Both the position numbers and the translations under genes were made by a program. From an uncultured Spartobacteria bacterium (GTDB lineage: Bacteria > Verrucomicrobiota > Verrucomicrobiia > Chthoniobacterales > Chthoniobacteraceae), in assembly GCA_903933715.1 (NCBI GenBank), contig CAIZLD010000075.1, forward strand, positions 1 through 60,232: 60,232 nt of DNA. The letters are read 5' to 3'. Below are positions 8,016 through 50,649 of this stretch, piece after piece. Numbering within the stretch: the first letter of the stretch is position 1; each line of letters opens with the position of its first letter. Under the pieces are notes generated by a model. It was given only the letters and a program-made list of their open reading frames with translations. It was not told the origin of the DNA and searched no databases.

Positions 8016-8858
8016 TCAATCTGCTATAAAAACAGTTTCAAATACAGGCATTCTCTTAACTAGCCCGGATACCGTTGTAAACTGCTGAAATCCAGTCAAC
8101 ACAATCGCCCGCTTTTCATCAAAAGCATTGGCATATACTTCCTTTAGTTCATCTTCCTCGCTATCATTGCCTTCCAATTTCTTATCTCTCGGCACAGCAA
8201 AATCCCAAAAAGCTCCTCGGAATTCCAATCTGTAATTCCGAACTGAATAAATAACGAAAGCCTCAGTAATTTGAACAACATTTGCATCCACCGCTTCACC
8301 CCTAAAAGCAAAACGCTTGCCGTCTTCTAGAGCGATCTCTCCCAAGTAGAGCCCCTCAACAAATTCGTTTAGGCTGGCAACTGGAGCATCAGCCCCAATG
8401 TCATCACGACACGAAAACACATATTTGAAATCGGATGTCTTGCGCATCACCGAAGCTGCAAGGCTTTTGGAATGTTTATTATTGGAATCCACTTGCTTGT
8501 TCCCTGTCGTTCTCGCATCAAGGACAAGCACCGCAAGAACGAGTAGCACCACACCTGCTATTGCAATCCTTTTCTTGCGCTCCTCCAATTTACATTTCCA
8601 AAAAAGCCATGAGGCAACCGGCGCGCCGAAAATAAAGGCAAGGCTTAGTGGCCTACCGTCGAAAGCCCAAACAACGAAAATGGTCAGAATTGCGGCAGTA
8701 ATTGCTTTCTTTAGCTTTTTAGGAAAAGCATTGCTTTGCCATAGGAGATAGAGGCCTAACGGCCAGATGAAAATAAGAGCTATAACTATTGGCCAGCGCC
8801 TATGCCGTTCGGGAACTTGAGGTTGTTCGGCGGGAGATGTGTTTTCAGTAGCATTCAT
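8016..8858 (-). CDS. Hypothetical membrane protein with soluble C-terminal domain
   Basis: A 280-residue protein of unknown function. The N-terminal 120 residues contain about four hydrophobic segments (WPIVIALIFIWPLGLYLLW; ITAAILTIFVVWAF; LSLAFIFGAPVASWLFW; IAIAGVVLLVLAVLVLDA). The C-terminal 150 residues are soluble and rich in beta-type patterns. It is the second gene of a pair: it starts 8 bases after the stop of the GYF-domain gene and has a clear AGGAG ribosome-binding site. The pairing of two membrane proteins suggests a joint role at the inner membrane, perhaps exclusion or sensing; nothing in the sequence defines it further. Confidence 0.65.
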   Translation of the reverse strand: MNATENTSPAEQPQVPERHRRWPIVIALIFIWPLGLYLLWQSNAFPKKLKKAITAAILTIFVVWAFDGRPLSLAFIFGAPVASWLFWKCKLEERKKRIAIAGVVLLVLAVLVLDARTTGNKQVDSNNKHSKSLAASVMRKTSDFKYVFSCRDDIGADAPVASLNEFVEGLYLGEIALEDGKRFAFRGEAVDANVVQITEAFVIYSVRNYRLEFRGAFWDFAVPRDKKLEGNDSEEDELKEVYANAFDEKRAIVLTGFQQFTTVSGLVKRMPVFETVFIAD

Positions 8859-8866
8859 TTAATCTC

Positions 8867-9544
8867 CTAATTCGTCTTTAGAAACCGATTTTCCCGAATG
8901 ATAATTCGCTTTTTGCAGGCTGGGCAATTTACGCCGGGCTCGTTGTGGCTAGCTTTAACTTCGGGATATGTGCAGTAGGGGCAACTTCCTGACAACCATG
9001 TTGGAGGCTTCACACAATAACCCAGTATTGGTGCCCCAAAGAACATAGCCACTGAGACCAGCATTAGTGGAATTCCGAGAATTGCTCCAATCCCAGTGAG
9101 CGAAAGAAGCAAACCTATAAAAAACGGCATAGAAGCCCCTGTTGATAGCAAACACCCAAAATTTAAGGCATTGGCTGCTCTGCTATCTGTATTCTGCGTT
9201 GCGGAGACTGATGATGCCAGTTCGACCACTCCTCGCCTTTTGACATGATGATCGTATCGTTCAGATATTTCGGCAGATTGCCTCAATTCGGTTCCGCCCG
9301 CTTCGGATATCCGGTTTGCCGCTGACGATGGAGACGAGGAAAATGGTTCCGGGACGACTTCGGAAAAGGGCTTCCAAAGGGTTTTCGCTTCTGGTGTCAC
9401 GAGCGTTCCCTGTTTAATCGTTCCCGCCACCGCAAGGCTTTTTAGTGTGTCAAAGGAAACCGGCCCAAATGGTTTTCCTTGTGCATTGGCGTAATACCAA
9501 CGATTCGGGGATGGCTCTTTTGGAGAAGAGGGAAATGTGCTCAT
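8867..9544 (-). CDS. GYF_2-domain membrane protein with C-terminal zinc ribbon
   Basis: A 225-residue protein. Residues about 14-63 match the bacterial GYF_2 domain (WYYANAQGKPFGPVSFDTL followed by LWKPFSEV), a peptide-binding module common in membrane proteins. A charged linker leads to two hydrophobic segments around residues 135-185, and the end is a zinc ribbon with two pairs, CPYC and CPAC, near residues 193-213. It is the first gene of a two-gene unit with the membrane protein at 8016-8858. A GGAAG sequence precedes the ATG at 9544. It is followed upstream by a 371-base non-coding region carrying two island palindromes, which may control it. Confidence 0.75.
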   Translation of the reverse strand: MSTFPSSPKEPSPNRWYYANAQGKPFGPVSFDTLKSLAVAGTIKQGTLVTPEAKTLWKPFSEVVPEPFSSSPSSAANRISEAGGTELRQSAEISERYDHHVKRRGVVELASSVSATQNTDSRAANALNFGCLLSTGASMPFFIGLLLSLTGIGAILGIPLMLVSVAMFFGAPILGYCVKPPTWLSGSCPYCTYPEVKASHNEPGVNCPACKKRIIIRENRFLKTN

Positions 9545-9788
9545 GTCTGTCTTTGGCTTCCTTGGTCAACTCAGCCCCCTTGCGATTTCCACAAGGAGGC
9601 CGGGAGTTAAGAAGCTGCAACAAGACAGCCGCGACGGCCTTTAACCGTGAGGTCTGGACATAACGCCGCCGCCCCCCGGCCATTTTTGATGGCTAGGAAG
9701 CGGCGTATTTGCTGCGGCATACGCCTGCCGCTTGTTGCGGGGTTCTTACGTCCCGGCTAGCTCTCGCCAGCTAAGGAAAACAGTCGCT

Positions 9789-9810
9789 ATTTTGCACCCG
9801 ATTGTAAAGG
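9789..9810. promoter_or_regulatory. Island palindrome 2 (degenerate copy)
   Basis: ATTTTGCA, spacer CCCGAT, TGTAAAGG: the same site as 7274-7295 with changes in the outer bases of both arms and one inside the right arm. It is 52 bases (about five helical turns) from copy 3, so the two could be occupied on one DNA face. Confidence 0.55.
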
Positions 9811-9840
9811 CGAATAAGGGGGGGAGGTGTGTAGGTCAAG

Positions 9841-9862
9841 TTTTTGCACCCAGTTGCAAAAA
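9841..9862. promoter_or_regulatory. Island palindrome 3 (TTTTTGCA-N6-TGCAAAAA)
   Basis: Perfect arms TTTTTGCA and TGCAAAAA around the spacer CCCAGT. It differs from copy 1 by a single base in the spacer. It lies between the integrase stop and the GYF gene. Confidence 0.65.
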
Positions 9863-9915
9863 TGACCTTGGAGAGGCGTTTTTCAGCCTCCCCTGAATGA
9901 ATCTGAAAATGCGTT

Positions 9916-11784
9916 TTATTTATCCCACTCTATGAGCCGCCGCACAGGCCGGTGCGCTTTGGTATAAAGGTGAGACAGGTTCAAGCCGGGGTATTGCGCC
10001 TTGCTGATTTCTTGCTTGAGAATTTGCACGTGTTTCGCCCGGCCATATTTGGCGCTCTGCCCCTGCCGGGCCCACCCTCCCATCATTTTTACCCACTCTT
10101 CGTTTGCTCCAGCATCGCGGAGAGCGGAGCGCCAACCATGCCGGAAGCTGTGAAATGTGGCTTCGGGTTTCGTTCCCAAGGTATGAACCAGAAAGTTGCT
10201 GAACCATTTACTGAAAACGTCGGAGTAGGAACCTGTTTTCTTGGCGGCTGGCAGTTCGGGAAAAAGTCGCGGCGAATTGGTATCCTGTCGCCGTTGCTCA
10301 AGGTATTCGGCAAATCCCATCTTCAAAAGTTCTGGGTGAACAGGGACGGTTCGCTTGCTTGCCGGTCGCTTAATCCGTTTATCGGATGCCCGTTCCCGCG
10401 TCTCCAGCGTGACCCTCACTTCAAACACAATTTCCCCTTCTTCCGTTTTTACATCTTGGGTGTAAAGCTGGCATATCTCGTTCAAGCGGAGCCCTTGATA
10501 CAATCCAATAAGCGGCACCCAAAATCTGCCGCGACGGATGATGTTTGGCCCAGGTATACGGTATCCTCGTTCATCGTTTTGGCAGCCAGTGTAAAGGGGG
10601 GCGCTGAATATTTGGGTTAATTCCTCTGCCGTGAATTCCACCGTGTTTTCGTCTTCGTCGCCCTGCTCCTCTTTTGGTGTAAAGCGTTGCTTGAGCCAGT
10701 AATCATCAAACGGATTTTCAAGAAGCAGCTTGGTTTGAACTGCATAGTCGAAAATCGAGAACATGTTGAAGAAGTAGTTCCGAAGTGTATTTGGAGCGAG
10801 CCGGTTGCTGTCTCCCTTTTTGTCGGCGTCCTCGATTGCTTGGAGCAATGATTTGCCTCGATAACGCTTCGTGGCATTGGATGGCAGCCGTTCAAGAAGA
10901 TCACAAAGCCGCTCTACCTCAGGACGACGAATTTCATCGAGCGGCGTGTCTTTCCCGAAAATGTCACAGAGCAATCGAGTATGCACTTGGTAAGCAAAAA
11001 GGGTTTTGGGGGCCAGCTTCGCTTTCTCTTGGTCTAGCAGGAATTGCTTGCAGAGCATTTCGACCGTCTTCACCATTATTTTAGATTTAACGGGAGTATG
11101 GGGAAAAATGTCTCTGAGCAGTGGATCGTAGCAACAGAAAGATTTGCCCTCCAATCGGTCACGTGTGCGCCGCAGATGTTCAACGGCTACCCGGCAAAGC
11201 AAGCCTTGCAATAGAGAGTATTCAGGGCTTTCTGCATCCAGCGTGAGGTGATTTTCGGAAAGAAAGCGTTTGATATGAAGATGCCCGTCATCTTTCTCCT
11301 CCATGTTGTCCGTATCGTCGCCGGTCAAGGCTGCCTCCTGAATCCAGAGGTCCGCGATAACGTCTCGCTGCTCGTTGCGATCCTTTTCCCCCCAGGTGTT
11401 TTGATACCGCTCCAGCGATTCCCGTTCTAACCGTATGAACCACATACGAGCGAGTTCTTGCGCGTGCGCTTCTGAGCGGATTTTCAGGAGGTGCGAACGG
11501 TGGCGAATTCGGCACGGAGTTACTGGGGCGGGGGGATTGATGCGGTTCCGCTCTGCTTCAAAAATGGCATTCGCCTTCTGGCTCTCTGCATTAATCATCC
11601 CGGCAGCTACTTTGGGATCAGATGTCTTGAGGGACCATTTGAGTTCCTTTTTGCCATCCAGTGCTTTTACCTTCCGCAGGTCTGCCGGAACCTTGGCACG
11701 CAAATAATAAACGGAGCCTCTGCGTTCGAGACGGGTGTGTCGGGTCACTTCGGAATTCTCTGGTGTATCAGTTTGGTGTCCCAT
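9916..11784 (-). CDS. int: Tyrosine recombinase, island integrase
   Basis: A 622-residue phage-type integrase. The N-terminus has the pattern RRGSVYYLRAKVPADLR seen in integrases with a DUF6538-type start, then a long helical arm-binding and core-binding region, and a C-terminal catalytic domain with the arginine in YQGLRLNEIC, the HxxR block HSFRHGWRSAL and a downstream tyrosine in GQSAKYGRAKH. The frame begins with TTG at 11796; the ATG at 11784 is preferred. It reads away from tRNA-Ala and lies in the same direction, 61 bases past the tRNA 3' end, so read-through from the tRNA promoter may drive it. It should catalyse integration and excision at the 17-base repeat. Confidence 0.92.
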   Translation of the reverse strand: MGHQTDTPENSEVTRHTRLERRGSVYYLRAKVPADLRKVKALDGKKELKWSLKTSDPKVAAGMINAESQKANAIFEAERNRINPPAPVTPCRIRHRSHLLKIRSEAHAQELARMWFIRLERESLERYQNTWGEKDRNEQRDVIADLWIQEAALTGDDTDNMEEKDDGHLHIKRFLSENHLTLDAESPEYSLLQGLLCRVAVEHLRRTRDRLEGKSFCCYDPLLRDIFPHTPVKSKIMVKTVEMLCKQFLLDQEKAKLAPKTLFAYQVHTRLLCDIFGKDTPLDEIRRPEVERLCDLLERLPSNATKRYRGKSLLQAIEDADKKGDSNRLAPNTLRNYFFNMFSIFDYAVQTKLLLENPFDDYWLKQRFTPKEEQGDEDENTVEFTAEELTQIFSAPLYTGCQNDERGYRIPGPNIIRRGRFWVPLIGLYQGLRLNEICQLYTQDVKTEEGEIVFEVRVTLETRERASDKRIKRPASKRTVPVHPELLKMGFAEYLEQRRQDTNSPRLFPELPAAKKTGSYSDVFSKWFSNFLVHTLGTKPEATFHSFRHGWRSALRDAGANEEWVKMMGGWARQGQSAKYGRAKHVQILKQEISKAQYPGLNLSHLYTKAHRPVRRLIEWDK

Positions 11785-11845
11785 AACGGTTTGCAACCGA
11801 CTGATTACCAGAGTGTTTCCTGAACCTCAACGACTTATATTGAAG

Positions 11846-33699: not shown

Positions 33700-34566
33700 A
33701 TGCATCGCTTCCACGAATGGACTGAGGTGAGATGGCATAATGAATCCGGCGATGCATACCGGCAAACGGGAGGTCAAAAACAGTTGAAGTCCGAAAGAAT
33801 CATTAAATCGCCCCGGGTGGGCACGTTTTTTCCATGGATCGGGACGGACCCGAAAAATACCGGGGGAGATGCGGCTTTGCACGGCAATGCCAGGGCGGGA
33901 TCTTTGCAAATCCCTCGCTGGAAACGTTGCCTGGACCTGTTCTGCATTCTGTTGAGCCTGCCGGTTCTGCTGCCGATTGTGCTCCTCATCAGTCTGGGAA
34001 TCCTGATTGTTTCGCCCGGTCCGGTATTTTTCCGCCAGGAACGAATCGGTTATCGGGGTCGTCGTTTCCAATGCCTGAAATTCCGGAGCATGAAAGTGGG
34101 AGCCGAAACCCGCTCTCACGAAAACTATCTCCAGGAGATCATCCGGAAAGACCGGCCGATGACGAAACTCGATGCCTCGAACGATCCGCGCCTGATTCCG
34201 TTTGGAAAGTTTTTCCGCGCAAGCGGACTCGATGAGCTTCCGCAACTCTGGAATGTGGTTCGGGGCGATATGAGCCTGGTCGGCCCCCGTCCTTGCACGG
34301 TTGGCGAATTTGAGCATTTCAACGATTGGCAGCGCAGCCGATGCGACGCGCCTCCGGGTCTCACCGGCTATTGGCAGGTCAATGGCAAGAACAAGACGAC
34401 TTTCAGCAAAATGATAGCAATGGATGTTTTCTACGCCAACAACATGTCCCTGGGGATGGATTTGGGAATCCTCCTCAAGACAGCTCCGGTTTTGGCGTCA
34501 CAGGTTTTCGAAACGCGAAAATTCATGCGTTCCGGGAAAAAGGAAATCAAACCCTTTATGGGATAA
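33700..34566 (+). CDS. Initiating sugar-phosphate transferase (undecaprenyl-phosphate acceptor)
   Basis: A 288-residue monotopic transferase that starts polysaccharide synthesis on undecaprenyl phosphate. After about 70 unconserved residues there is one hydrophobic segment (LFCILLSLPVLLPIVLLISL) and then the conserved bacterial sugar transferase domain with FRQERIGYRGRRFQCLKFRSM, RASGLDELPQLWNVVRGDMS and LVGPRPCTVGEF. The large N-terminal part of WcaJ-type enzymes is missing, as in the compact family members. The first ATG is used but the true start could be inside the unconserved part. Confidence 0.9.
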   Translation: MHRFHEWTEVRWHNESGDAYRQTGGQKQLKSERIIKSPRVGTFFPWIGTDPKNTGGDAALHGNARAGSLQIPRWKRCLDLFCILLSLPVLLPIVLLISLGILIVSPGPVFFRQERIGYRGRRFQCLKFRSMKVGAETRSHENYLQEIIRKDRPMTKLDASNDPRLIPFGKFFRASGLDELPQLWNVVRGDMSLVGPRPCTVGEFEHFNDWQRSRCDAPPGLTGYWQVNGKNKTTFSKMIAMDVFYANNMSLGMDLGILLKTAPVLASQVFETRKFMRSGKKEIKPFMG

Positions 34567-34592: not shown

Positions 34593-35642
34593 ATGGGGGA
34601 ACCTATTTCAGTAGGCGTGGTTGGATGTGGATATTGGGGACCGAATTTGATTCGCAATCTCAAAGCCCTGCGCACCTGCCGTGTCAAAACGATGTGCGAT
34701 GCGAGCGAGGAGCGTCTTGCTCATTTGAGGAACATTTACCCGGATGTCGAGGGAGTCACGGATTATTGCGCGATGCTTCAGGACAAAGAGCTGGACGCGA
34801 TTGTTGTTGCCACTCCCGTAAAATACCATTTCGCGATCGCACGGGCCGCGCTGTTGGCCGGGAAACACACGTTCATCGAAAAACCGATGGCTGCGTCGGT
34901 GGCCGAATGCGAGGAGTTGATCGAAATCGCCCATCAAAAGGGGCTGATCCTGATGGTCGGCCACACGTTTCTCTATTCATCACCGGTCAAAAAAATGCTG
35001 GAGATCATCCGAAACGGGGACATCGGCGAGATTCGCTATATTAACTCGCGGCGGCTGAATCTGGGCCTGTTCCAAAAGGATATCAATGTGGCGTGGGATC
35101 TCGCGCCCCACGATATTTCCATCATTTTGCATATCCTTGATGAGTTCCCCGTCTCGGTGAACTGCCAGGGGAACGCGCATGTCACCGTGGGAATCGAGGA
35201 TGTCACGAATCTCTCTCTGATCTTCAAAAACAAGCGTTTTGCCACAATCCAGAGCAGTTGGCTCGAGCCGAGAAAAGTTCGCGAGATGACGATCGTCGGC
35301 ACGCGCCGGATGATCCTCTACGATGATGTCCAGACGCTGGAAAAAATCCGGATCTACGACACCCGCGTCGAACGCCCGCCGCATTACGACACGTTCGCCG
35401 ACTTCCACTACTCCTATCATTACGGGGATAGCTATATTCCCAAGCTCCAGCAGGAGGAGCCGTTGAAGGCCGAGTGCCAGCATTTTCTGGATTCGATCCA
35501 GACCGGGACGCCGCCGCTGACCGATGGCCATGCGGGATTGAGGCTCGTGCGGATTCTCGAAGCCTCGTCAATGTCCCTTAAACAAAACGGCGCGCCGGTG
35601 GCATTGCAAAAACCGCCCATTGAGGAGGAATCCTTAAACTAA
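34593..35642 (+). CDS. Gfo/Idh/MocA oxidoreductase (WbpB type)
   Basis: A 349-residue NAD-dependent oxidoreductase. It begins with VGVVGCGYWGPNLIRNL, has VATPVKYHFAIARAALLAGK and the EKPMA motif, and the dehydrogenase half HDISIILHILDEFP. It probably oxidises UDP-GlcNAcA at C3, giving the substrate of the aminotransferase at 36146-37258 (inferred from neighbours). The ATG at 34593 follows AAGGAAGG; the longer frame from 34326 overlaps the previous gene and is rejected. Confidence 0.88.
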   Translation: MGEPISVGVVGCGYWGPNLIRNLKALRTCRVKTMCDASEERLAHLRNIYPDVEGVTDYCAMLQDKELDAIVVATPVKYHFAIARAALLAGKHTFIEKPMAASVAECEELIEIAHQKGLILMVGHTFLYSSPVKKMLEIIRNGDIGEIRYINSRRLNLGLFQKDINVAWDLAPHDISIILHILDEFPVSVNCQGNAHVTVGIEDVTNLSLIFKNKRFATIQSSWLEPRKVREMTIVGTRRMILYDDVQTLEKIRIYDTRVERPPHYDTFADFHYSYHYGDSYIPKLQQEEPLKAECQHFLDSIQTGTPPLTDGHAGLRLVRILEASSMSLKQNGAPVALQKPPIEEESLN

Positions 35643-36149
35643 ATGAAAGCCCCCTCCCCCATGGAGTTCCATCGGATTGCGCCCGACGTGAAGCTCGGCC
35701 GGGATGTACGGATCTTTGCCTTCGTCAACCTTTACGGATGCGAGATCGGCGACGAAGTTAAAATCGGCGCCTTTGTGGAAATCCAAAAAGGCGTCAAAAT
35801 CGGCGACCACTGCAAAATATCAAGCCACACCTTCATCTGCGAAGGGGTTACAATCGAACCGGCCGTCTTCATCGGGCATGGCGTGACATTCATTAACGAT
35901 CGCTACCCTCGCGCCACCAATGCCGACGGGGCGCTGCAAACCGAGGCGGACTGGGCGCCGCTCCCCACACTGATCCGGCGGGGAGCTTCCATCGGCTCCG
36001 GCGCGACGATCCTCGGCGGAATCACCGTGGGGGAACACGCCATTGTCGGCGCGGGAAGCGTCGTCACCCGGGATGTGCCGCCCCACGCCGTTGTCGCGGG
36101 AAACCCTGCATCAATACTTTGTAAACACCCAACCCAAATTCCAAAATGA
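35643..36149 (+). CDS. Left-handed beta-helix N-acetyltransferase (WbpD type)
   Basis: A 168-residue hexapeptide-repeat transferase. The isoleucine-rich turns VKLGRDVRIFAFVNLYGCEI, VKIGAFVEIQKGVKIGDHC and IGSGATILGGITVGEHAIVG alternate with the active-site segment GHGVTFINDRYPRATN. It resembles WbpD, which acetylates the 3-amino group of UDP-GlcNAc3NA. It starts directly at the stop of the previous gene and overlaps the aminotransferase as ATGA. Confidence 0.88.
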   Translation: MKAPSPMEFHRIAPDVKLGRDVRIFAFVNLYGCEIGDEVKIGAFVEIQKGVKIGDHCKISSHTFICEGVTIEPAVFIGHGVTFINDRYPRATNADGALQTEADWAPLPTLIRRGASIGSGATILGGITVGEHAIVGAGSVVTRDVPPHAVVAGNPASILCKHPTQIPK

Positions 36150-37258
36150 AAGTACCCTTCCTTGACCTCCACGCCCACCACGAACCGCTCCGGCAACAAT
36201 TTGACGAAGTAATCCATCATGTCATCGAGAGCGGCGCGTTTGCCGGCGGACCGTTTGTTGACCGGTTTGAAGAAGATTTTGCCGCCTATTGCGAATGCGC
36301 ACACGCCATCGGGGTGGGCAGTGGCACGGAAGCGCTTTGGTTGTGCCTTCTCGCGCTCGGCATCGGGGCCGGAGACGAGGTCATCACCGTCCCCAATTCC
36401 TTTATGGCCACGGCGGAAGCGATCTCCTATTGCGGCGCGCGGCCGGTGTTTGTCGATGTCGATGAATGCACTTATACGATGAACCCGGAGGCTTTGGCGG
36501 ACGCCATCACTCCCAAAACCAAGGCGATCATTCCGGTTCATATTTTCGGCCAGCCTGCCGATATGGATCCGATTCTCGCGCTGGCCCAGGAACACGGGTT
36601 GCATGTGATCGAAGATGCATGCCAGGCCCACGGTGCCCGCTACAAAGAGCGGCGTGCTGGTTCGATGGGGATCGCGGGCTGTTTCAGTTTTTATCCCGGC
36701 AAAAATCTCGGCGCATTTGGCGAAGCCGGCGCCATTGTGACAAACAACCCCGATTTGAATGAAAAAATCCGCGTTTTGCGCGACCACGGTCAGTTCCGAA
36801 AATACCATCATTCCAAGATTGGATGGAACTGCCGGATGGACGGCATCCAGGGGGGAATCCTTCGCGTGAAATTGAAAATGCTCGAAAACAAAAACCAAAA
36901 TCGCAGGGCTCACGCCGCACATTACAACCGGGCGTTAGTCCAGATCCCCGGGGTGCTCACTCCCCTGCATGCCTCGTACGCGCAGCATGTCTATCATATC
37001 TATGCCATTCGCGTGAAGGAGCGCGAACGGATCATGGAACGGCTCACCCAAAAACAAATCGGGTGCGCCGTTCATTATCCTATCCCGATTCACCTTCAGG
37101 AAGCTTACCGAAGCCTCGGCTACGAGAAAGGCTCCTTCCCGGTCGCCGAACGATGTGCCCGGGAATTTATCTCTTTGCCGATGTACCCCGAGCTGACCTC
37201 TGAACAAGTGAAGCAGGTGGCCTCATGCCTGAATGAGGCCATCTCAGAAATCGACTAG
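36146..37258 (+). CDS. DegT/DnrJ/EryC1-type sugar aminotransferase (WbpE type)
   Basis: A 370-residue PLP-dependent sugar aminotransferase. It has the start VPFLDLHAHHEPLRQQFDEV, GSGTEALWLCLLALGIGAGD, EDACQAHGA and the PLP lysine in CFSFYPGKNLGAFGEAGA. By position between WbpB- and WbpD-like genes it should aminate C3 of the UDP-uronic acid using glutamate. Confidence 0.92.
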   Translation: MKVPFLDLHAHHEPLRQQFDEVIHHVIESGAFAGGPFVDRFEEDFAAYCECAHAIGVGSGTEALWLCLLALGIGAGDEVITVPNSFMATAEAISYCGARPVFVDVDECTYTMNPEALADAITPKTKAIIPVHIFGQPADMDPILALAQEHGLHVIEDACQAHGARYKERRAGSMGIAGCFSFYPGKNLGAFGEAGAIVTNNPDLNEKIRVLRDHGQFRKYHHSKIGWNCRMDGIQGGILRVKLKMLENKNQNRRAHAAHYNRALVQIPGVLTPLHASYAQHVYHIYAIRVKERERIMERLTQKQIGCAVHYPIPIHLQEAYRSLGYEKGSFPVAERCAREFISLPMYPELTSEQVKQVASCLNEAISEID

Positions 37259-37275
37259 TTACCTTCCTCAACATC

Positions 37276-39450
37276 ATGAAAACTATAACACCCCAAGAGC
37301 CCGAAACCGGCATTAATTTAAACGATATTCTGTTCATTCTTTTCCGACACAAAGGAAAGATCATTATCAGCACTCTGACCGGCATTGTGGCATCGCTGGT
37401 TTTCTATTTTCATTTCCCGATTTACGAGTCGAAGGCCAAGCTCATTGTCCGCTATGTATTGGACCGCAGCCCCGTGGACAAGGTCGAGGCAGGCACGAAT
37501 GCGGTGAACAGTCTCGTCGGCGATGCCATTATCAACTCGGAAGTGGAGATCCTTAACAGCATGGACCTCGCGTTGCAGGTGGCGGAGTCGGTGGGTCCAA
37601 GGGTGCTGCTCCCAAAAGCAGCCGACCCCAACAAAGATCAAGCGGCTGGAATGATCGCCTCCGGGCTTAAGGTTTCTCAAAAACTGGGCAGCAATGTCAT
37701 TACGGTTTCCTATCGAAATCGGAATCCCGGAATTCCCAAGCGCATTGTTGAAGATCTTGTAACCCACTACTTTGACAAGCATCTGCAAGTACACCGTTCG
37801 CTGGGAACCTTTGATTATGTGATGCGCGAAACACAAAAAGTGCGTTTGCAGCTTCATCAGACCGAGGAACAGCTCAAGACGTTGAAGGAAAAAGCGGGCA
37901 TTCTTTCTCTCGCTGAGAGCACCGCAAACATCAGCACCACCCTGATCAAAAGTCAGGAAGAGTTTAACGCCGCTGAGGTGGAGCGGGCCGAACAGCTTGC
38001 CCGTGTTCAGGAAATCGAAAAATGGATCTCCGGGCTGGGGACATCGCTGGCTGCCACTCCCGACCAGCAAAACCGGAACCGGGATGGCATTCAGGAATAC
38101 CAAACTCTTGGATTCCGTCTGGACGATCTGCGCCGGAGGGAGCGGGATCTGCTCTCCAAATATACCGAGGAAAACCAGCAGGTAAAACTGGTTCGTAATC
38201 AAATCGCCGACATCGAGAAGCGGCGGCGCGGGATCGAGAAAGTTTACCCGGGCATTCTGAGGCTTTCCGGACCGGCCACCGCCTCGGCCTCATCACCCCG
38301 GTTTGATCTCGCGTCGGAAAAAACCCGCCTCGCCTCAATCGACGCCAAGACTGGCGTCCTATCGTCCCAACTCCACACCACCCAGGAGAAGGCCGCCCGG
38401 ATTGCATCGATTGGCACTGAGATTGCACAACTCGAACGTCAAAAAGAGTTGGAGGAAACCAATTACCGGTATTTCGAGAGCAGCCTGGAAAAGGCTCGCA
38501 TTGATGAAACGCTCGACCCATCCAAAATCCCAAACATCAGCATCGTCCAAAATCCAACCGACGCCCAGCGCGATTACGAGGGAATGAACAAGATCATGAT
38601 CGGTCTGGTCGGAGGAGGCTTGGTGTTCGGCCTTGCGCTTTCTTTTCTGATTGAACTGCTGTTTGACCGGACCGTAAAGCGGCCGCTGGAAATTGAGTCG
38701 CGTCTGCGTCTTCCCTTGCTGGTCACGATTCCGTATCTCCCTCCGCCCCGCAACATGCGCCAGCCTTCACCTGGTGAGGAGAGCGAATCAGAGACTTCAA
38801 TCGAAGAGGTCAGAAAATCCGAGGTCATCCACCAACTCCATCTCTATTTGGAGGCGATTCGGGACCGGCTGATTCTCTACTTCGAACTCAACAAAATGAT
38901 GCGCAAACCGAAGATGATCGCGGTCACCGGAGTCTCCCCGTCTGCGGGAATTTCCACGGTGGCGGGAGGTCTCGCCGCCTCGCTTTCGGAAACCGGTGAA
39001 GGGAAGGTTTTGCTCGTCAATATGAATGTTGGGCATCCCGAGATGCATCCGTTCCGCAATGGGAAGCCGGTGCAGTCTCTGGTTGATATTTTGAAAACGA
39101 GCCGGCAGGAACGCGATCCCGTTCACGGCCTTTACCTCGCTACGGCCGGTACCGAAAAAACCGGGCACGCCCAGTTCATTCCGAAGAAATTCTACGATCT
39201 CATGCCAAATCTCAAGGAGAGTGATTTCGATTACATTATCTTTGACATGCCCCCATTAAACCAAACGAGCACCACGGTGGCTTTTGCCGGTTTCATGGAC
39301 AAAGTGTTGATGGTCATCGAAGCGGGAGCGAGCCACCCGGAATCGCTCAAGCGGGCCTATCGGGAACTGCTCAACACCAATGCCGATGTCTCTTGCATTT
39401 TCAATAAAGCCCGCCCCTGCGCCCCCAAATACATCGAAGGGGAAATCTAA
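37276..39450 (+). CDS. Chain-length/co-polymerase protein with degenerate BY-kinase domain
   Basis: A 724-residue Wzc/GumC-type membrane protein. It has a first membrane span near residues 28-47, a long periplasmic coiled region (residues about 170-430), a second span (IGLVGGGLVFGLALSFLIEL, about 441-460) and a cytoplasmic P-loop domain. The domain's Walker A is GVSPSAGISTVAGG near residue 551: the GK(S/T) lysine is missing. The A' motif VLLVNMNVGHP has asparagine for the usual aspartate. Walker B YIIFDMPP is kept. There is no C-terminal tyrosine cluster. It probably controls polysaccharide chain length without kinase activity. Confidence 0.88.
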   Translation: MKTITPQEPETGINLNDILFILFRHKGKIIISTLTGIVASLVFYFHFPIYESKAKLIVRYVLDRSPVDKVEAGTNAVNSLVGDAIINSEVEILNSMDLALQVAESVGPRVLLPKAADPNKDQAAGMIASGLKVSQKLGSNVITVSYRNRNPGIPKRIVEDLVTHYFDKHLQVHRSLGTFDYVMRETQKVRLQLHQTEEQLKTLKEKAGILSLAESTANISTTLIKSQEEFNAAEVERAEQLARVQEIEKWISGLGTSLAATPDQQNRNRDGIQEYQTLGFRLDDLRRRERDLLSKYTEENQQVKLVRNQIADIEKRRRGIEKVYPGILRLSGPATASASSPRFDLASEKTRLASIDAKTGVLSSQLHTTQEKAARIASIGTEIAQLERQKELEETNYRYFESSLEKARIDETLDPSKIPNISIVQNPTDAQRDYEGMNKIMIGLVGGGLVFGLALSFLIELLFDRTVKRPLEIESRLRLPLLVTIPYLPPPRNMRQPSPGEESESETSIEEVRKSEVIHQLHLYLEAIRDRLILYFELNKMMRKPKMIAVTGVSPSAGISTVAGGLAASLSETGEGKVLLVNMNVGHPEMHPFRNGKPVQSLVDILKTSRQERDPVHGLYLATAGTEKTGHAQFIPKKFYDLMPNLKESDFDYIIFDMPPLNQTSTTVAFAGFMDKVLMVIEAGASHPESLKRAYRELLNTNADVSCIFNKARPCAPKYIEGEI

Positions 39451-39460
39451 GCGTCAATCT

Positions 39461-40570
39461 ATGCAAAGCCGGACCGCACAACCGATCGAAGCCGTTCCAC
39501 ACGCCCTCCGCCGCCGGGCGAGAATTTGGATCGACCTCGATAACACCCCGCATGTCCCGTTTTTCAAACCGATCATTCGGGAACTGAGAGATCGGGGGCA
39601 CAAGGTTGCGCTAAGCGCGCGCGATGCTTTCCAGGTGTGCGACATGGCGGATCAAGCGGGGCTCGATTACCGAAAAATCGGACGCCATTATGGCAGGAGC
39701 CGATTCCTGAAGGTCTGGGGACTCGCATGGCGCAGCCTGCAATTGCTGCCGTTTGTGTTGCAGAAACGCCCCACGATCGCGCTCTCGCACGGATCGCGCT
39801 CCCAGATCTTAATCTGTAATCTGCTTGGGATTCCGACGGTGATGCTCATGGATTACGAGTTCGCGCAGACTCCCCCGATGGTTCGGCCGCGGTGGGAGAT
39901 CGTGCCGGACGTGCTGCAAAATCATGCGCTTCAGTGCAAGGAAAAATCTCGCATCAGGTGTTATCGGGGGATCAAGGAAGATGTCTATGCCTGCGACCTG
40001 CGGCGGGATGCAACCCTGTTGCGGCAGCTTGGAATTGACAGTCGCCAAATAATCGCGACGGTCCGGCCGCCCGCCTGCGAAGCCCATTATCATCATCCCG
40101 ACAGCGATCTGTTGTTCGAATGTTTTATGGAGCGCCTCTGCAAAGCGCAAGGGGTGGTCGCGGTGCTTTTGCCACGGAACAAAAGCCAGGAGGCCGGGTT
40201 TCGCAAAAGATGGCCCCACTGGTTCACCGATGGCAAGGTGATCATCCCAAAGGAAGCCGTCGATGGCCTGAATCTGTTATGGCATTCCGATTTGGTGGTC
40301 AGCGGGGGCGGCACGATGAACCGGGAAGCGGCAGCGCTCGATGTGCCTGTTTACAGCATTTTCCGGGGAAAGATGGGGGCTATCGACCGCCATTTGCACC
40401 GCAAGGGGCGCATGGCCCTCATCGAAAGCGTGGAAGAGATTTACACACGGATTTTGTTTCAGCATCGGGATAAATCGCACTCGCCGGATACCAGGAGGCG
40501 CCCCGCCCTGGACGATATTCTGGATCGCATCGAGGAAATCATCACGGTCGAAGCTTCTCAACGCCGTTGA
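39461..40570 (+). CDS. DUF354 family protein
   Basis: A 369-residue protein of the DUF354 family, which has a GT-B-like fold related to UDP-GlcNAc 2-epimerases. It begins IWIDLDNTPHVPFFKPIIRE, has LSHGSRSQILICNLLGIPTV, MDYEFAQTPP and the C-terminal VVSGGGTMNREAAALDVPVY. It lies next to the 2-epimerase and may transfer or process the uronic-acid sugar. The ATG at 39461 is used; the frame is open upstream inside the Wzc gene. Exact activity unknown. Confidence 0.85.
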   Translation: MQSRTAQPIEAVPHALRRRARIWIDLDNTPHVPFFKPIIRELRDRGHKVALSARDAFQVCDMADQAGLDYRKIGRHYGRSRFLKVWGLAWRSLQLLPFVLQKRPTIALSHGSRSQILICNLLGIPTVMLMDYEFAQTPPMVRPRWEIVPDVLQNHALQCKEKSRIRCYRGIKEDVYACDLRRDATLLRQLGIDSRQIIATVRPPACEAHYHHPDSDLLFECFMERLCKAQGVVAVLLPRNKSQEAGFRKRWPHWFTDGKVIIPKEAVDGLNLLWHSDLVVSGGGTMNREAAALDVPVYSIFRGKMGAIDRHLHRKGRMALIESVEEIYTRILFQHRDKSHSPDTRRRPALDDILDRIEEIITVEASQRR

Positions 40571-45879: not shown

Positions 45880-46990
45880 GGTCGCTATCATCGGGTGTGG
45901 AAAAATTGCCGATGCCCATCTTGAGGAGATCCAGCGCGTCGGCGATTGCGAAGTCGTCGCCGCCTGCGATTGCGAACCCCTCATGGTGCGCCAATGTTGC
46001 GATCGCTATCACATCCCGCATGCGTTCAGGGACGTTCGTGAGCTGCTCGACGCCTGCCGTCCCGACGTGGTCCATTTGACCACTCCGCCCCGGAGCCATT
46101 TTCCAATCGCCATGCAATGTCTGGCCAGCGGAGCGCATCTCTACATCGAGAAGCCGTTCGCGTTGAACTATGAAGAGACCCGGCAACTGCTCGACTGCGC
46201 CGAATCGAAGCGCCTTAAAATAACAGCCGGGCACGACTTGCAATTTTCACCCGTTGCACGCCGGATGAGGGGGCTCATCCAAACCGGGTATCTCGGAGGC
46301 GCCCCGGTTCACATGGAAAGCTATTATTGTTATGAGCTCGGAAATCCGACGTATGCCCGGGCGTTGTTGGCCAACAGCGGGCATTGGGTGCGCCAGCTCC
46401 CCGGCAAATTGCTCCAGAACGTCATCAGCCATGGAATGGCGAGACTGGCGGAATATTTTGAGGGCGATGATCCCGATGTCCAGGTGTGCGGATACGTCAG
46501 CCCGATGCTTCGGAGCCTGGGGGAAGAGGAGATCGTCGATGAGCTGCGGGTGATGGTGAGTGAAGGACGGCAACGGAGCGCCTATTTTACGTTTTCCTCG
46601 CAGATGCAGCCGGCGCTCAATCAGTTTCGGATTTTCGGCCCGGCAAACGGGCTCGTTCTCGACCAGGATCAAGAGACGCTGTTACGGCTCCCGGGCCGGC
46701 GGTTCAAGAGCTACGCTCAAAAATTCATTCCGCCCGTTGTCACCGCAAAGGAGTGCATTTCGAACGTCGCGACGAATCTCCGCCTGCTGCTCCGGCGCGA
46801 ATTCCAGCCCAAAGCCGGAATGCATTGGCTGATATCATCCTTCTACAATGCCATCGCAAATAATACCCCACCCCCCATTCCCGCCCGTGAAATCCTTTGG
46901 ACTGCGCGGGTGATGGACAAGATTTTTGCTCAACTGCATCGCGGCGGGGATTGGGGAGAACTCCACAAAATCCACGACGAGATCCCATGA
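45872..46990 (+). CDS. Gfo/Idh/MocA oxidoreductase (second copy in cluster)
   Basis: A 372-residue NAD-binding oxidoreductase. It begins VAIIGCGKIADAHLEEIQRV and has the motif IEKPFALNYEET. The C-terminal part is less conserved than in the WbpB-like enzyme at 34593-35642, so the substrate is probably different. It overlaps the SDR gene and ends with ATGA into the O-antigen ligase, suggesting one transcript. Confidence 0.88.
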   Translation: MLKVAIIGCGKIADAHLEEIQRVGDCEVVAACDCEPLMVRQCCDRYHIPHAFRDVRELLDACRPDVVHLTTPPRSHFPIAMQCLASGAHLYIEKPFALNYEETRQLLDCAESKRLKITAGHDLQFSPVARRMRGLIQTGYLGGAPVHMESYYCYELGNPTYARALLANSGHWVRQLPGKLLQNVISHGMARLAEYFEGDDPDVQVCGYVSPMLRSLGEEEIVDELRVMVSEGRQRSAYFTFSSQMQPALNQFRIFGPANGLVLDQDQETLLRLPGRRFKSYAQKFIPPVVTAKECISNVATNLRLLLRREFQPKAGMHWLISSFYNAIANNTPPPIPAREILWTARVMDKIFAQLHRGGDWGELHKIHDEIP

Positions 46991-48315
46991 AAATACCGGC
47001 CTTCCTACTCTGCGTCGCGTTCATCGCATACCTCCTGCGGTTTGACTATAAGCTGACGCGCAACAAGGTTTCGTTCTGCCTATGGCTGCCGACGGCCTGG
47101 ATGCTCATTTGCGCTTCCAAGCCTTTGGGAATCTGGTTTGGGGGCGCTGATTTTTATTCCGGAAGCTCCATGGATCGCATTTTTCTGACTCTGTGTTTTT
47201 TTATTGGTTTTATTATTTTGCTCAAACGGAATTTTGATTGGACCCGGCTTTTTCGCGAGAACCGCTGGTTGATGTTGCTGCTCATCTATATGCTGATCAC
47301 GCTATTCTGGTCTGATCTTCCCTTCGTCTCTTTCAAGCGCTGGTTTCGGGAACTGGTGGCGATCATCATGGCGCTTGTCGTTGCCAGCGATCCGGCTCCG
47401 CGCGAGGCGATGCAAAGCCTTTTTCGAAGGACGGCCTATATTCTCATTCCATTCTCGTTATTCCTGATCCGGCATATCCCCGCCCTGGGGACCGAGTTTC
47501 ACCATTGGAGCGGCAAAAGAATGTGGATCGGGGTGGCGCTTCAAAAAAACGGGTTGGGAAGACTCTGTGTCGTTTGCGCTTTTTTCCTGATCTGGACCCT
47601 GGTTCGCCGCTGGAACGGACGCGATGTTGCGATCTCGAAAAATCACACTTACGCAGAAATCTTTTTGCTTTTGCTAACGTTCTGGATTTTGAAAGGGCCC
47701 GGGGGTGCCTACCCCGCGACGGCGGTTGTCGTCCTGGCTTTCGGGCTTTTGCTTTATGCTTTTTTGCTGTGGAGAAGAGCGCAGGAACGTGTGGTGAGGC
47801 CGTTCCCAATCGCCGCGTCGCTCACGGCAATGCTGGCCTACGGAATTTCTATTCCCTATTTGACCATATCGGTTTTGAGCGGCTTTTTGGAAATGCTTGG
47901 GCGCGACGCGACCTTCACCGGGCGTACCGCGATCTGGGCCGCTTTGCTTCCCGTGGCATCGAATCAGCCGTTCTTCGGACTCGGTTTTGGCAGTTTCTGG
48001 ACGCCGCTCACCCGCATTCACTATATTGTCGGCGAGGCTCACAATGGCTATCTCGATGCGGCGCTCGACATAGGCTATTTTGGGTTGCTTCTCCTGACGC
48101 TGTATCTGCTGTCTTCGTGTTACCGGGCCGTTAAGGGGCTCCTTGTCGATTTTGACTGGGCGTGCCTTTGGTTGTGTCTTCTGTTTATGACGGTACTCCA
48201 CAACGCCACAGAGTCTTCGCTCAACTCGTTGGCCAGTCACTTTTCCGCGCTGCTGGTTTTCATGGCGCTCGCATTTCCAGCGATAGCCGCCTCGAAAAAC
48301 ACAGACGAACCCTGA
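46987..48315 (+). CDS. O-antigen ligase/polymerase family membrane protein
   Basis: A 442-residue integral membrane protein with about ten to twelve spans. The large periplasmic segment before the last spans carries GRDATFTGRTAIWAALLPVA and FGLGFGSFWTPLTR..HNGYLDAALDIGY, matching the Wzy_C/O-antigen ligase family. It could polymerise the repeat units or ligate them to a lipid carrier. The ATG at 46987 overlaps the previous stop. Confidence 0.88.
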   Translation: MKIPAFLLCVAFIAYLLRFDYKLTRNKVSFCLWLPTAWMLICASKPLGIWFGGADFYSGSSMDRIFLTLCFFIGFIILLKRNFDWTRLFRENRWLMLLLIYMLITLFWSDLPFVSFKRWFRELVAIIMALVVASDPAPREAMQSLFRRTAYILIPFSLFLIRHIPALGTEFHHWSGKRMWIGVALQKNGLGRLCVVCAFFLIWTLVRRWNGRDVAISKNHTYAEIFLLLLTFWILKGPGGAYPATAVVVLAFGLLLYAFLLWRRAQERVVRPFPIAASLTAMLAYGISIPYLTISVLSGFLEMLGRDATFTGRTAIWAALLPVASNQPFFGLGFGSFWTPLTRIHYIVGEAHNGYLDAALDIGYFGLLLLTLYLLSSCYRAVKGLLVDFDWACLWLCLLFMTVLHNATESSLNSLASHFSALLVFMALAFPAIAASKNTDEP

Positions 48316-48319
48316 TCGC

Positions 48320-49351
48320 ATGAAAGAGCAGCCGCCATTTGATCGCTGGCTCACTCCGGTTTACGGCCGGGTTGCCTTCCCTCTTTTGCGCCGGTTGCAA
48401 CCCGTCAATCCGCTGGGCGTCTATTACCACATCGTGAGCGATGCCCGTGTGCCTCACGTGGACCGGCTGTATCGTTTCCGCAACGTGGCCCGGTTCAGCC
48501 GGGATCTCGACGTTCTCGCTCAAATTTATCGCCCCATTTCGCTGCACGATTTTCTCGCCAGCCTCAACACGGGAATTGCCTTGCCCAAAAACTCCCTGCT
48601 GCTGACTTTTGATGACGGATTGCGCGAATGCCACGAAATCATCGCCCCCATTTTGAAACGCAAAGGAATTCCCGCGACTTTTTTTCTTTGCAGCGCGTTT
48701 GTGGATAATCGGGCCTGGGCTTTCGATCTCAAAAAAAGCGTGCTCGCGGACGCCTTGAGCGGGACGGTTCTCCAGCCGAGGCAAAAATGCGCGTTGCGGC
48801 GGATTCTCGACGGGGCCGGGTTGCGCTCGTCCGATTTGACGGAAGCGGTGCTCGGCGTCGATTACTCGCGCCGCCTGATCCTGGAGCCGATTGCCGCGCT
48901 GCTCGACTACGACCTCGACGCCTATCTCAAAAAAGCGCGCCCCTATCTCACCTCTGATCAAGTCCGGGAGCTATTGAAAGAGGGGCACGCCATCGGGGCT
49001 CATAGCATCGATCACCCGCGTTATGGTAATCTCCCGCTGCGAGAACAGTTGCGCCAAACCCGCGAAAGCGTTCGATTCATCAAGGGGCGGTTTTCGCTCG
49101 ATTACGGGGCGGTGGCTTTCCCGAGTTCGGACGCAAATATTTCGCGCTGTTTTTTTGAGGAAATCATGGCCGATGTCGATGTTTGCTTTGGAAATCAAGG
49201 TCTCCTTGAGGATGCGGCGCCCCGGTGCGTGCAGCGCATGACGATGGAAAAAACGGACCGGCCCGCCGAAGCGATTCTGGGCGAAAGTTATACCCGCCGG
49301 TTGGTAAAGAGGGCCGCGGGAAAGGGTGTGGTTCCTCGCCCTGTAGTATAA
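48320..49351 (+). CDS. Polysaccharide deacetylase (NodB domain)
   Basis: A 343-residue enzyme. The NodB homology part begins LLLTFDDGLRECHEIIAPIL (metal aspartates), continues PATFFLCSAFVDNRAW, and has GHAIGAHSIDHPRYGNLPL (His pair). No signal peptide is clear, so it may act in the cytoplasm or be anchored by the hydrophobic start. It probably removes N- or O-acetyl groups from the polysaccharide or its precursor. Confidence 0.88.
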   Translation: MKEQPPFDRWLTPVYGRVAFPLLRRLQPVNPLGVYYHIVSDARVPHVDRLYRFRNVARFSRDLDVLAQIYRPISLHDFLASLNTGIALPKNSLLLTFDDGLRECHEIIAPILKRKGIPATFFLCSAFVDNRAWAFDLKKSVLADALSGTVLQPRQKCALRRILDGAGLRSSDLTEAVLGVDYSRRLILEPIAALLDYDLDAYLKKARPYLTSDQVRELLKEGHAIGAHSIDHPRYGNLPLREQLRQTRESVRFIKGRFSLDYGAVAFPSSDANISRCFFEEIMADVDVCFGNQGLLEDAAPRCVQRMTMEKTDRPAEAILGESYTRRLVKRAAGKGVVPRPVV

Positions 49352-49404
49352 GTTGTTTAACATCCGTGCGTCCTCTGGCACAGCGTTTGCTACCCATTGT
49401 TCCC

Positions 49405-50649
49405 ATGTTTTCTAAGCAATCCTATCTTCGTTACCTCGCTTTGACTGCCATTGGCCTAGGGATCAGCGTTCTTCCTGCACAGGCTGCCACCCGAACGGCT
49501 GCTTCCGCTTCGCTCACCGATGTTTCCGCGGCGATTGCAGCCTCCGTGGATGGCGATACCGTCAACATTCCGGCCGGCAGCGCCACTTGGGGCTCCACGC
49601 TTAAATTAACCAAAGCCATCACCCTCAAAGGAGCGGGATCGGGATCGACCAAAATCAGCGCCAACGGCATCACGATGATGGTGATCTCCCTCTCTGCCAA
49701 TAAACCGGTGCGCGTCTCGGGAATCAATTTTACGAATGCGGGAGGCACGAAGTCCCCCACGCTAATCATTTGGGGCAGCAGCCATACCGGAACCGGCACT
49801 CCGATCACCTCGCTCCGGGTTGACCATTGCAACTTCACGTTCGGCAAACGCGCGGTCAATCCCGACGGCTATGTGTACGGCGTGATCGATCACAACACAT
49901 TCGTCAATTGCGACATCGGCGTCGGCATCACCGGAGACGACGATTACGCGTGGAAGCGTCCGATCGAGCCCGGTTCGATCAACACCCTTTGCATCGAGGA
50001 CAACACCTTCACGATCAATAACAGCACGCCGGTCGCGCCCAACGAGCAGATTTATCATCAGGAGGGGACGCGCACCACGATCCGTCGCAACACGTTTGAC
50101 GGACGCGCTTACACCAACGGCTCCTCCCTGTTCTTCGACTGCCACGGGAACCAGGGCTACTATACCGGTAACACCTCCACCGACTTCCGGGGGACCGTCC
50201 TGGTTGAGTTCTACAACAACATTATGAAGGCGTATAAGACTTACCGGATGCTTTATATCCGGGCGGGAACCACCTTCGCCTACAACAATACAATGACTTG
50301 CGATAGCGGCAGCGCGACCGCGTTTGCCCTGACCGAGGAGGAAGCGTGGCAAACCCAGTTCTTCAACCCGCTCAAGACCACCTGGCCCGCACAGGATCAA
50401 GTCACTAACAGCCATTTCTGGAACAACACCATGAATGGAGCGGCCGTCACCTCGGTAACATTGTGGAACGCGAAAGACTCCACGTTTATTCAACAAGGCC
50501 GTGACTATTGGATGAGCGCGCCCGCTTCCGGAAACAAATATTATCCGTACACCGCGTTGGTCTACCCTCACCCGCTCGTGACCGCTCAGGATGGAGGAAC
50601 CGCCACCGCCCCGAGCGCGCCCAAAAACTTCAAGGTTCTCGCTCCCTAA
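49405..50649 (+). CDS. Secreted right-handed beta-helix protein
   Basis: A 414-residue exported protein with signal peptide (YLALTAIGLGISVLPAQAA). The rest consists of parallel beta-helix turns with N-ladders (SGINFTNAGG, VDHCNFTFG, IDHNTFVNCDIGVG, IEDNTFTINN, TIRRNTFDGRAY, YNNTMTCD). This is the fold of pectate-lyase and alginate-lyase/epimerase-like proteins. In a polysaccharide cluster it is a good candidate for a modifying or degrading enzyme, but no catalytic residue is assigned. Confidence 0.8.
   Translation: MFSKQSYLRYLALTAIGLGISVLPAQAATRTAASASLTDVSAAIAASVDGDTVNIPAGSATWGSTLKLTKAITLKGAGSGSTKISANGITMMVISLSANKPVRVSGINFTNAGGTKSPTLIIWGSSHTGTGTPITSLRVDHCNFTFGKRAVNPDGYVYGVIDHNTFVNCDIGVGITGDDDYAWKRPIEPGSINTLCIEDNTFTINNSTPVAPNEQIYHQEGTRTTIRRNTFDGRAYTNGSSLFFDCHGNQGYYTGNTSTDFRGTVLVEFYNNIMKAYKTYRMLYIRAGTTFAYNNTMTCDSGSATAFALTEEEAWQTQFFNPLKTTWPAQDQVTNSHFWNNTMNGAAVTSVTLWNAKDSTFIQQGRDYWMSAPASGNKYYPYTALVYPHPLVTAQDGGTATAPSAPKNFKVLAP

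Follow-up and report, generated by a model that had tools for sequence, protein, structure and literature searches.

The window, i.e., the whole stretch of 60,232 nucleotides that was analysed, comes from an uncultured Spartobacteria bacterium and carries a polysaccharide gene cluster (Table 1). Positions 38900-39450, which the first-pass annotation described as a chain-length protein with lost BY-kinase residues, were found to be the kinase-like C-terminal part of a single ORF of 724 residues.

Table 1. Features of the co-polymerase ORF and of neighbouring genes in the window. Fractions of 42 refer to relatives with at least 5 kb upstream of the co-polymerase.
Feature	Position	Strand	Evidence
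Initiating polyprenyl-phosphate sugar transferase	33700..34566	+	PF02397 2.4e-57; upstream homologue in 36/42 relatives
Gfo/Idh dehydrogenase, nearest UDP-GlcNAc 3-dehydrogenase	34593..35642	+	NF040723 1.5e-49, under cut-off; upstream in 31/42
Hexapeptide-repeat acyltransferase	35643..36149	+	PF00132 1.2e-22; upstream homologue in 24/42
DegT/DnrJ aminotransferase	36146..37258	+	PF01041 3.9e-125; upstream in 28/42
PCP-2a-like (Wzc-like) co-polymerase fused to putative BY pseudokinase domain, 724 aa	37276..39450	+	ORF, Wzz, NCBIfam, PDB relatives
Wzz / chain-length domain, aa 13-104	37312..37587	+	PF02706 E 7.8e-06, above gathering score
Periplasmic, mostly helical region and second membrane helix, aa 123-492	37642..38751	+	TIGR03007, modelled helices
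Cytoplasmic domain of predicted BY-kinase fold, aa 465-724	38668..39447	+	VIA-align vs 3la6
Degenerate Walker A GVSPSAGISTVAGG, residues 552-565, Ile559 for Lys	38929..38970	+	Sequence, alignment
Degenerate Walker A' VLLVNMN, Asp 582 and 584 both Asn	39007..39027	+	Sequence, alignment
Intact Walker B FDYIIFDMPP	39226..39255	+	Sequence, tree rows
Short C-terminal tail NKARPCAPKYIEGEI in place of Tyr cluster	39403..39447	+	Alignment, family consensus NKxRxYxPxxL
DUF354 protein	39461..40570	+	PF04007 1.3e-38
Wzy-like polymerase/ligase (Wzy_C), start codon uncertain	46897..48315	+	PF04932 1.2e-10

All four upstream homologues were found together in 17 of the 42 relatives. By comparison with the Wbp/Wlb pathways, the upstream sugar genes would fit a diacetamido-uronic acid sugar. 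Downstream in the window, genes for the DUF354 protein, UDP-GlcNAc 2-epimerase, glycosyltransferases, the Wzy_C protein, and a deacetylase were identified. No OPX match was found on the contig of the window, and no flippase was matched among the scanned ORFs of the cluster. Elsewhere in the same genome, contig C63 (L118, 3336-8448) carries a group of DegT, flippase (PF13440), and OPX (PF02563) genes; none of the ORFs read on it encodes a co-polymerase, and this flippase and OPX may complete the export system of the window.

Several other genes were noted. Inside the polysaccharide cluster, an ORF at 49225-50649 on the plus strand is possibly a secreted repeat protein as judged by eye, with no Pfam match. 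A phage-type integrase with DUF6538 lies at 9916-11796 on the minus strand of the window. Two exosortase matches (PF09721) were found in the same genome, i.e., on contigs C4 (5494-6264) and C10 (42012-42782). In 30 of the 39 relatives with 5 kb downstream, the co-polymerase is followed by an ORF that resembles residues 1-380 of the L024 ORF at 8535-10880. The Pfam matches of that ORF start only at residue 366 (GT4-type glycosyltransferase), and its first part is deacetylase-like by eye only.

The Wzz domain of the window protein, its matches to BY-kinase models and PDB sequences, and the fit of its modelled domain to known structures point the same way: it is a co-polymerase with a fused domain of predicted BY-kinase fold. 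Residues 123-492 matched TIGR03007, the XrtA chain-length family, with an E value of 3.7e-30 and 104.6 bits, under the curated cut-off of 278.85. The C-terminal part matched the BY-kinase models TIGR03018 (1.8e-15) and TIGR01007 (5e-12), both under their curated cut-offs. In a sequence search of the PDB, the nearest entries were PslE, Wzc, and CapAB. The AlphaFold2 model, made from 57 sequences, was of moderate quality overall (mean pLDDT 77.7, pTM 0.47). In this model, residues 465-724 were superposed over 227 residues on 3la6, the kinase domain of Wzc (Z 22.0, 2.9 A, 18% identity). The superposition on CapAB gave Z 21.6, and the next chains, of MinD type, reached about Z 12. Helices 26-46 and 434-463, taken from the AlphaFold2 model alone, are predicted to flank the periplasmic part. 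Of the EX2RX2R motif, which has been named as the BY-kinase oligomer motif (PMC3795738), Glu526 and Arg529 are present, and the next Arg is at 531 instead of 532.

The losses in the kinase-like domain that were read from the window agree with the alignments. The P-loop has Ile559 (codon att, 38950-38952) in a column that holds Lys in 29 of the 31 BY-kinase domains used for comparison and Arg in the other two. Both aspartates of the A' motif are Asn, and the protein stops 14 residues past Asn710 with a single Tyr (719) there, i.e., no terminal tyrosine cluster is present. The further claim that only Walker B remains was slightly too strong: Walker B is intact, and Gly558 and the Ser/Thr at 560-561 are kept as well. 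Sequencing error was excluded as the origin of these residues, as the nearest relative (L005, 56% identical, from a different assembly) shares the Ile and NMN. Lys546, invariant in the core family (64/64), was considered as a compensating lysine and rejected; it is not a replacement, because comparison domains often carry a basic residue there (Lys in 17/31, Arg in 6/31) and seven intermediate relatives do not have it.

A scan of one genome per species gave 73 loci. Sixty-three true relatives with ORFs of more than 250 residues and the window protein formed a family alignment of 64 rows; the 112-aa fragment L067 was left out by length. Nine rows (L002-L004, L069-L073, and L076) are other P-loop proteins outside the family counts, and L074, L075, and L077 were not entered. 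Four contigs labelled Planctomycetes, Rhizobiaceae, and Acidobacteria (L032, L040, L045, and L046) carry the verrucomicrobial-type gene and are probably misbinned.

Lys was found in none of the 64 rows, and its column contains T in 22, V in 21, A in 17, I in 3, and S in 1. Position 584, the second A' Asp, is N in 36, T in 20, S in 7, and Q in 1, so its loss is family-wide. At position 582, the first A' Asp, D is kept in 60 rows, N occurs in 3 including the window protein, and S in 1; two Asn in this motif, as in the window protein, are thus less common than the family pattern. Past Asn710, the 63 readable rows have tails of 12-20 residues with 0-2 Tyr, and Tyr715 is found in 47/63 and Trp719 in 28/62 rows.

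Part of the nucleotide pocket was retained. Gly558 and Ser/Thr at 560 and at 561 are each present in 64/64 family rows, and Asn710 in 63/63. FDYIIFDM was one of the search peptides of the scan, which accounts for its exact presence in all 64 rows (the other five search peptides are exact in one row each). Walker B Asp657 was also kept in 10 of 11 core loci of a profile search of the phylum, which is evidence independent of the peptide scan. Among the rows used for the tree described below, both Gly558 and Asp657 are kept in 36/37 core and 7/7 intermediate rows. The conservation of Gly558, Ser/Thr560-561, and the Walker B Asp in nearly all rows would be in keeping with some remaining nucleotide binding or with an ATPase of unusual type. 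For E. coli, Wzc in its native phosphorylated form was reported as mainly monomeric, and Wzc K540M as octameric and binding ADP-Mg (PMC8285477). The retained residues and the ADP-Mg binding of K540M would suit a nucleotide-controlled switch of the ParA/MinD kind, i.e., a domain that binds and perhaps hydrolyses nucleotide without the Lys and opens or closes the co-polymerase ring without phosphotransfer. However, no family row has the Lys, the core is without the second A' Asp, and one family member (L088 in G375) lost Gly558 and the Walker B Asp too (FDFIIFNMP), so not every member needs binding. Such a switch is considered unlikely.

Purifying selection acts more strongly on the dead domain than on the periplasmic part. 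The median dN/dS of the dead domain was 0.087 versus 0.179 in 45 near pairs, and the dead domain was the lower of the two in 43 of these 45; the pairs share ancestry and the simple counting method saturates, so the values are a comparison and not a test statistic, and eight domain residues are fixed by the scan peptide. Of 53 near pairs, eight had been dropped for short overlap or undefined or saturated dS. Recent decay, in which the kinase domain is on its way out, would explain why several motifs are gone and why L088 has lost more. A loss common to the family, together with low dN/dS and purifying selection stronger than in the rest of the protein, speaks so clearly against it that we give this explanation hardly any weight.

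The profile search covered 387 genomes of the phylum and gave 11 very strong matches (E < 1e-230, the own genome included) and nine intermediate matches (3.5e-38 to 2.9e-167). Lys was absent in all 11 strong and in eight of the nine intermediate genomes, i.e., 19/20. Intermediates L095 (GEGVTS) and L097 (GEGVST) look canonical save for the Lys, G362 is also without it (GSGVST), and the second A' Asp was kept in two of seven intermediates. Among the weaker matches, the ten next loci (L098-L107) have xEGK[ST] and Tyr-rich ends. The exception among the 20, G293, keeps the Lys (KEGKTT) in a minus-strand ORF (L162, contig C357) with a family-type short tail, NQRRYYLPKL, near its end; its kinase part and periplasmic part are on different contigs. 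Because this protein combines the Lys with the family-type tail, the tail alone is no mark of a dead kinase. Nineteen plasmid records were matched. Three of them span 80% or more of the query with identities of 20.7-20.8%, and no close relatives were found.

A tree of 75 kinase-like domains, built without the lysine column, set 44 lysine-less rows apart from 31 comparison rows with support 100/97. When G362 and G293 were added, 45 lysine-less rows stood on one side with support 95/76, which is not firm. The lysine-less rows together with G293 were split from the 31 comparison rows at 100/95, and the core family alone at 100/98. The rows are a chosen subset, i.e., 37 core rows (34 of the 64 family rows and three from the phylum search), seven and then eight intermediates, and 31 comparison rows. 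The comparison rows were partly known beforehand as Lys carriers, as eight of the ten loci L098-L107 were used; L146 and L150 have Arg. The end branch of G293 is long (1.33). A single loss of Lys after the tail change is the simplest reading of this unrooted tree of chosen rows, and not a proof.

The G293 protein may be a relic of the transition from BY-kinases to the lysine-less clade. On a wider reading, a lineage of Verrucomicrobiota would have swapped the tyrosine-phosphate cycle of Wzc for a phosphorylation-free ring. The Tyr tail would have changed to the short NKxRxYxPxxL tail, with G293 as the surviving step, and the Lys would have been lost afterwards. The remaining pocket, i.e., the P-loop Gly, Ser/Thr, Walker B Asp, and Asn710, would bind nucleotide or the tail of the neighbour, and ring assembly would be gated by pocket occupancy or tail docking rather than by phosphotransfer. 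This full sequence of events is speculative, and we hold it to be doubtful.

The genome of the window (2.80 Mb, 97% complete) was searched for other kinases. A canonical BY-kinase co-polymerase with GEGKST, DADLRR, and a YQYYTQYYDYY tail was found on contig C41, adjoining an OPX gene. A second non-canonical co-polymerase (P0002; L120, 14728-16776) was found on contig C67; it has GEGKTA, A' LLVDCNL, and no Tyr tail, and it adjoins an OPX protein of 810 aa. Two LMW phosphatase matches were also present. Among the 20 genomes with family or intermediate proteins, 17 had a TIGR01007 match at E ≤ 1e-15, which in G293 is only the C357 fragment itself. In the other three (G223, G289, and G339, each 97% complete), no TIGR01007 match was obtained at E ≤ 1e-15, and all three carry the lysine-less family protein (E 1e-274 to 1e-291). 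Their PF13614 matches at E ≤ 1e-5 were ten proteins of 263-378 residues with KGGxGK P-loops, which we take to be of ParA, MinD, and Mrp type. Within the limits of genome completeness and of the models used, no BY-kinase was detected in these three genomes, and the lysine-less protein thus occurs where no BY-kinase is detected.

These results bear on the suggestion of the first-pass annotation that another kinase acts. This is possible in the present genome, where the canonical kinase of C41 has a Tyr tail, but as an explanation it does not hold generally, and such a kinase would find no Tyr cluster to act on in the window protein. More fully, the window protein could be a dead partner controlled in trans, being phosphorylated by, or forming mixed rings with, the C41 kinase or P0002. 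Both partners are encoded in the own genome along with the two phosphatase matches, and most genomes with family or intermediate proteins have the TIGR01007 match; the three family genomes without a detected kinase, the missing Tyr tail, and the position of the C41 kinase and P0002 each beside its own OPX gene make control in trans improbable.

BY pseudokinases, i.e., EcpK, HfsB, and PssP2, are already published. EcpK of Myxococcus xanthus and HfsB of Caulobacter are reported as stand-alone proteins that are needed for Wzx/Wzy-dependent polymers, with a proposed role as scaffolds (PMC12004946). They are paired with a kinase-less PCP, whereas the window protein is fused. Rhizobium leguminosarum PssP2 is a fused pseudokinase described as taking part in EPS chain-length determination (PMC4182512), and the EcpK paper names SMc01795, BCETI_6000729, Mlr8439, and VV1_2305 as fused PCP-pseudokinases (PMC12004946). 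Like these five, the window protein is a co-polymerase fused to a BY-kinase-like domain judged inactive. By the descriptions given in these sources, PssP2 is without Walker A, A', and B and has a much shorter periplasmic part (PMC4182512), and EcpK has none of the Walker motifs and ends in a helix (PMC12004946). The window family differs from both descriptions in that nearly all its members keep the Walker B Asp and P-loop Gly, and in having a conserved tail of its own. The inactive CapB1 has also been discussed in pseudokinase terms (PMC3795738).

With the PCP-2a BY-kinases Wzc, CapAB, BceF, and VpsO, the window protein shares the Wzz domain, helical periplasmic part, second membrane helix, BY-kinase fold as predicted, and intact Walker B; unlike them, it is without the Walker A Lys, A' DxD, and Tyr cluster. 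Pseudomonas aeruginosa PslE was the best PDB sequence match (5.6e-16, residues 130-489), which consists of the periplasmic part and a weak N-terminal piece and leaves the kinase-like domain unmatched. The best NCBIfam matches of the two halves are to the XrtA/PEP-CTERM pair, i.e., TIGR03007 and the kinase TIGR03018, and a FemAB-like gene (for L006, a TIGR03019 match under cut-off) lies upstream in 31/42 relatives. In contrast to the XrtA/PEP-CTERM systems, the scores are far under the curated cut-offs, the halves are fused, and TIGR03019 had no match in the own genome at E ≤ 1e-5.

Among the matches listed in the PMC literature, no paper on a verrucomicrobial BY pseudokinase was found; the PCP survey of Cuthbertson et al. 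2009 possibly mentions one. The new features are the phylum-level lysine-less clade, the partly kept nucleotide pocket, and the short conserved tail found where BY-kinases have the Tyr cluster. In its likely working, the window protein should belong with EcpK, HfsB, and PssP2, i.e., as a scaffold ring without phosphotransfer.

The most probable explanation, in which we have good though not full confidence, is that the window protein is a scaffold BY pseudokinase co-polymerase of a Wzy-type exopolysaccharide locus and works without tyrosine phosphorylation. The sequence loss, core-family conservation, tree position, purifying selection, predicted fold, and locus context are the basis of this pseudokinase reading; from them we infer the octamer, the absent kinase activity, and the role in chain length and export. 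The protein would be a chain-length and export regulator of the locus. Its BY-kinase fold would be kept as a structural, possibly nucleotide-binding ring below the membrane that transfers no phosphate to tyrosine. How long the polymer grows and how it is exported would depend on the architecture of the PCP ring and on contacts between proteins, and not on a cycle of octamers and monomers driven by phosphorylation, as in Wzc. The short conserved tail may replace the Tyr tail at the neighbouring subunit. In effect, the protein would be a natural equivalent of Wzc K540M, the inactive laboratory mutant that was used for structures (PMC11986026).

The proposal that length control here works without tyrosine phosphorylation, which the first-pass annotation had made from the sequence alone, is supported by the comparative sequence data. 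Across a core family under purifying selection, the Lys and second A' Asp are lost and no Tyr tail is left, and there are three family genomes without a detected BY-kinase. Because the loss of catalytic residues is common to a group of related bacteria, polymer export in them probably runs without the usual tyrosine-phosphate switch. Against this reading, the phosphorylation cycle of Wzc is reported to be crucial, and therefore something else must supply the switch in the window protein.

In the standard model, PCP-2 proteins work by phosphorylation-driven assembly and disassembly of octamers. The observation of the lost residues is well supported, and the function of the window protein is putative. 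A clade that is without the chemistry yet guards the sequence of the domain, in some genomes without a detected BY-kinase, offers a natural test of whether chain length and export depend on the phosphorylation cycle or can be managed by a static ring. This question may be testable with the relatives found in Haloferula sp. BvORR071 (L021) and Pelagicoccus (L039 and L052), which are named strains.
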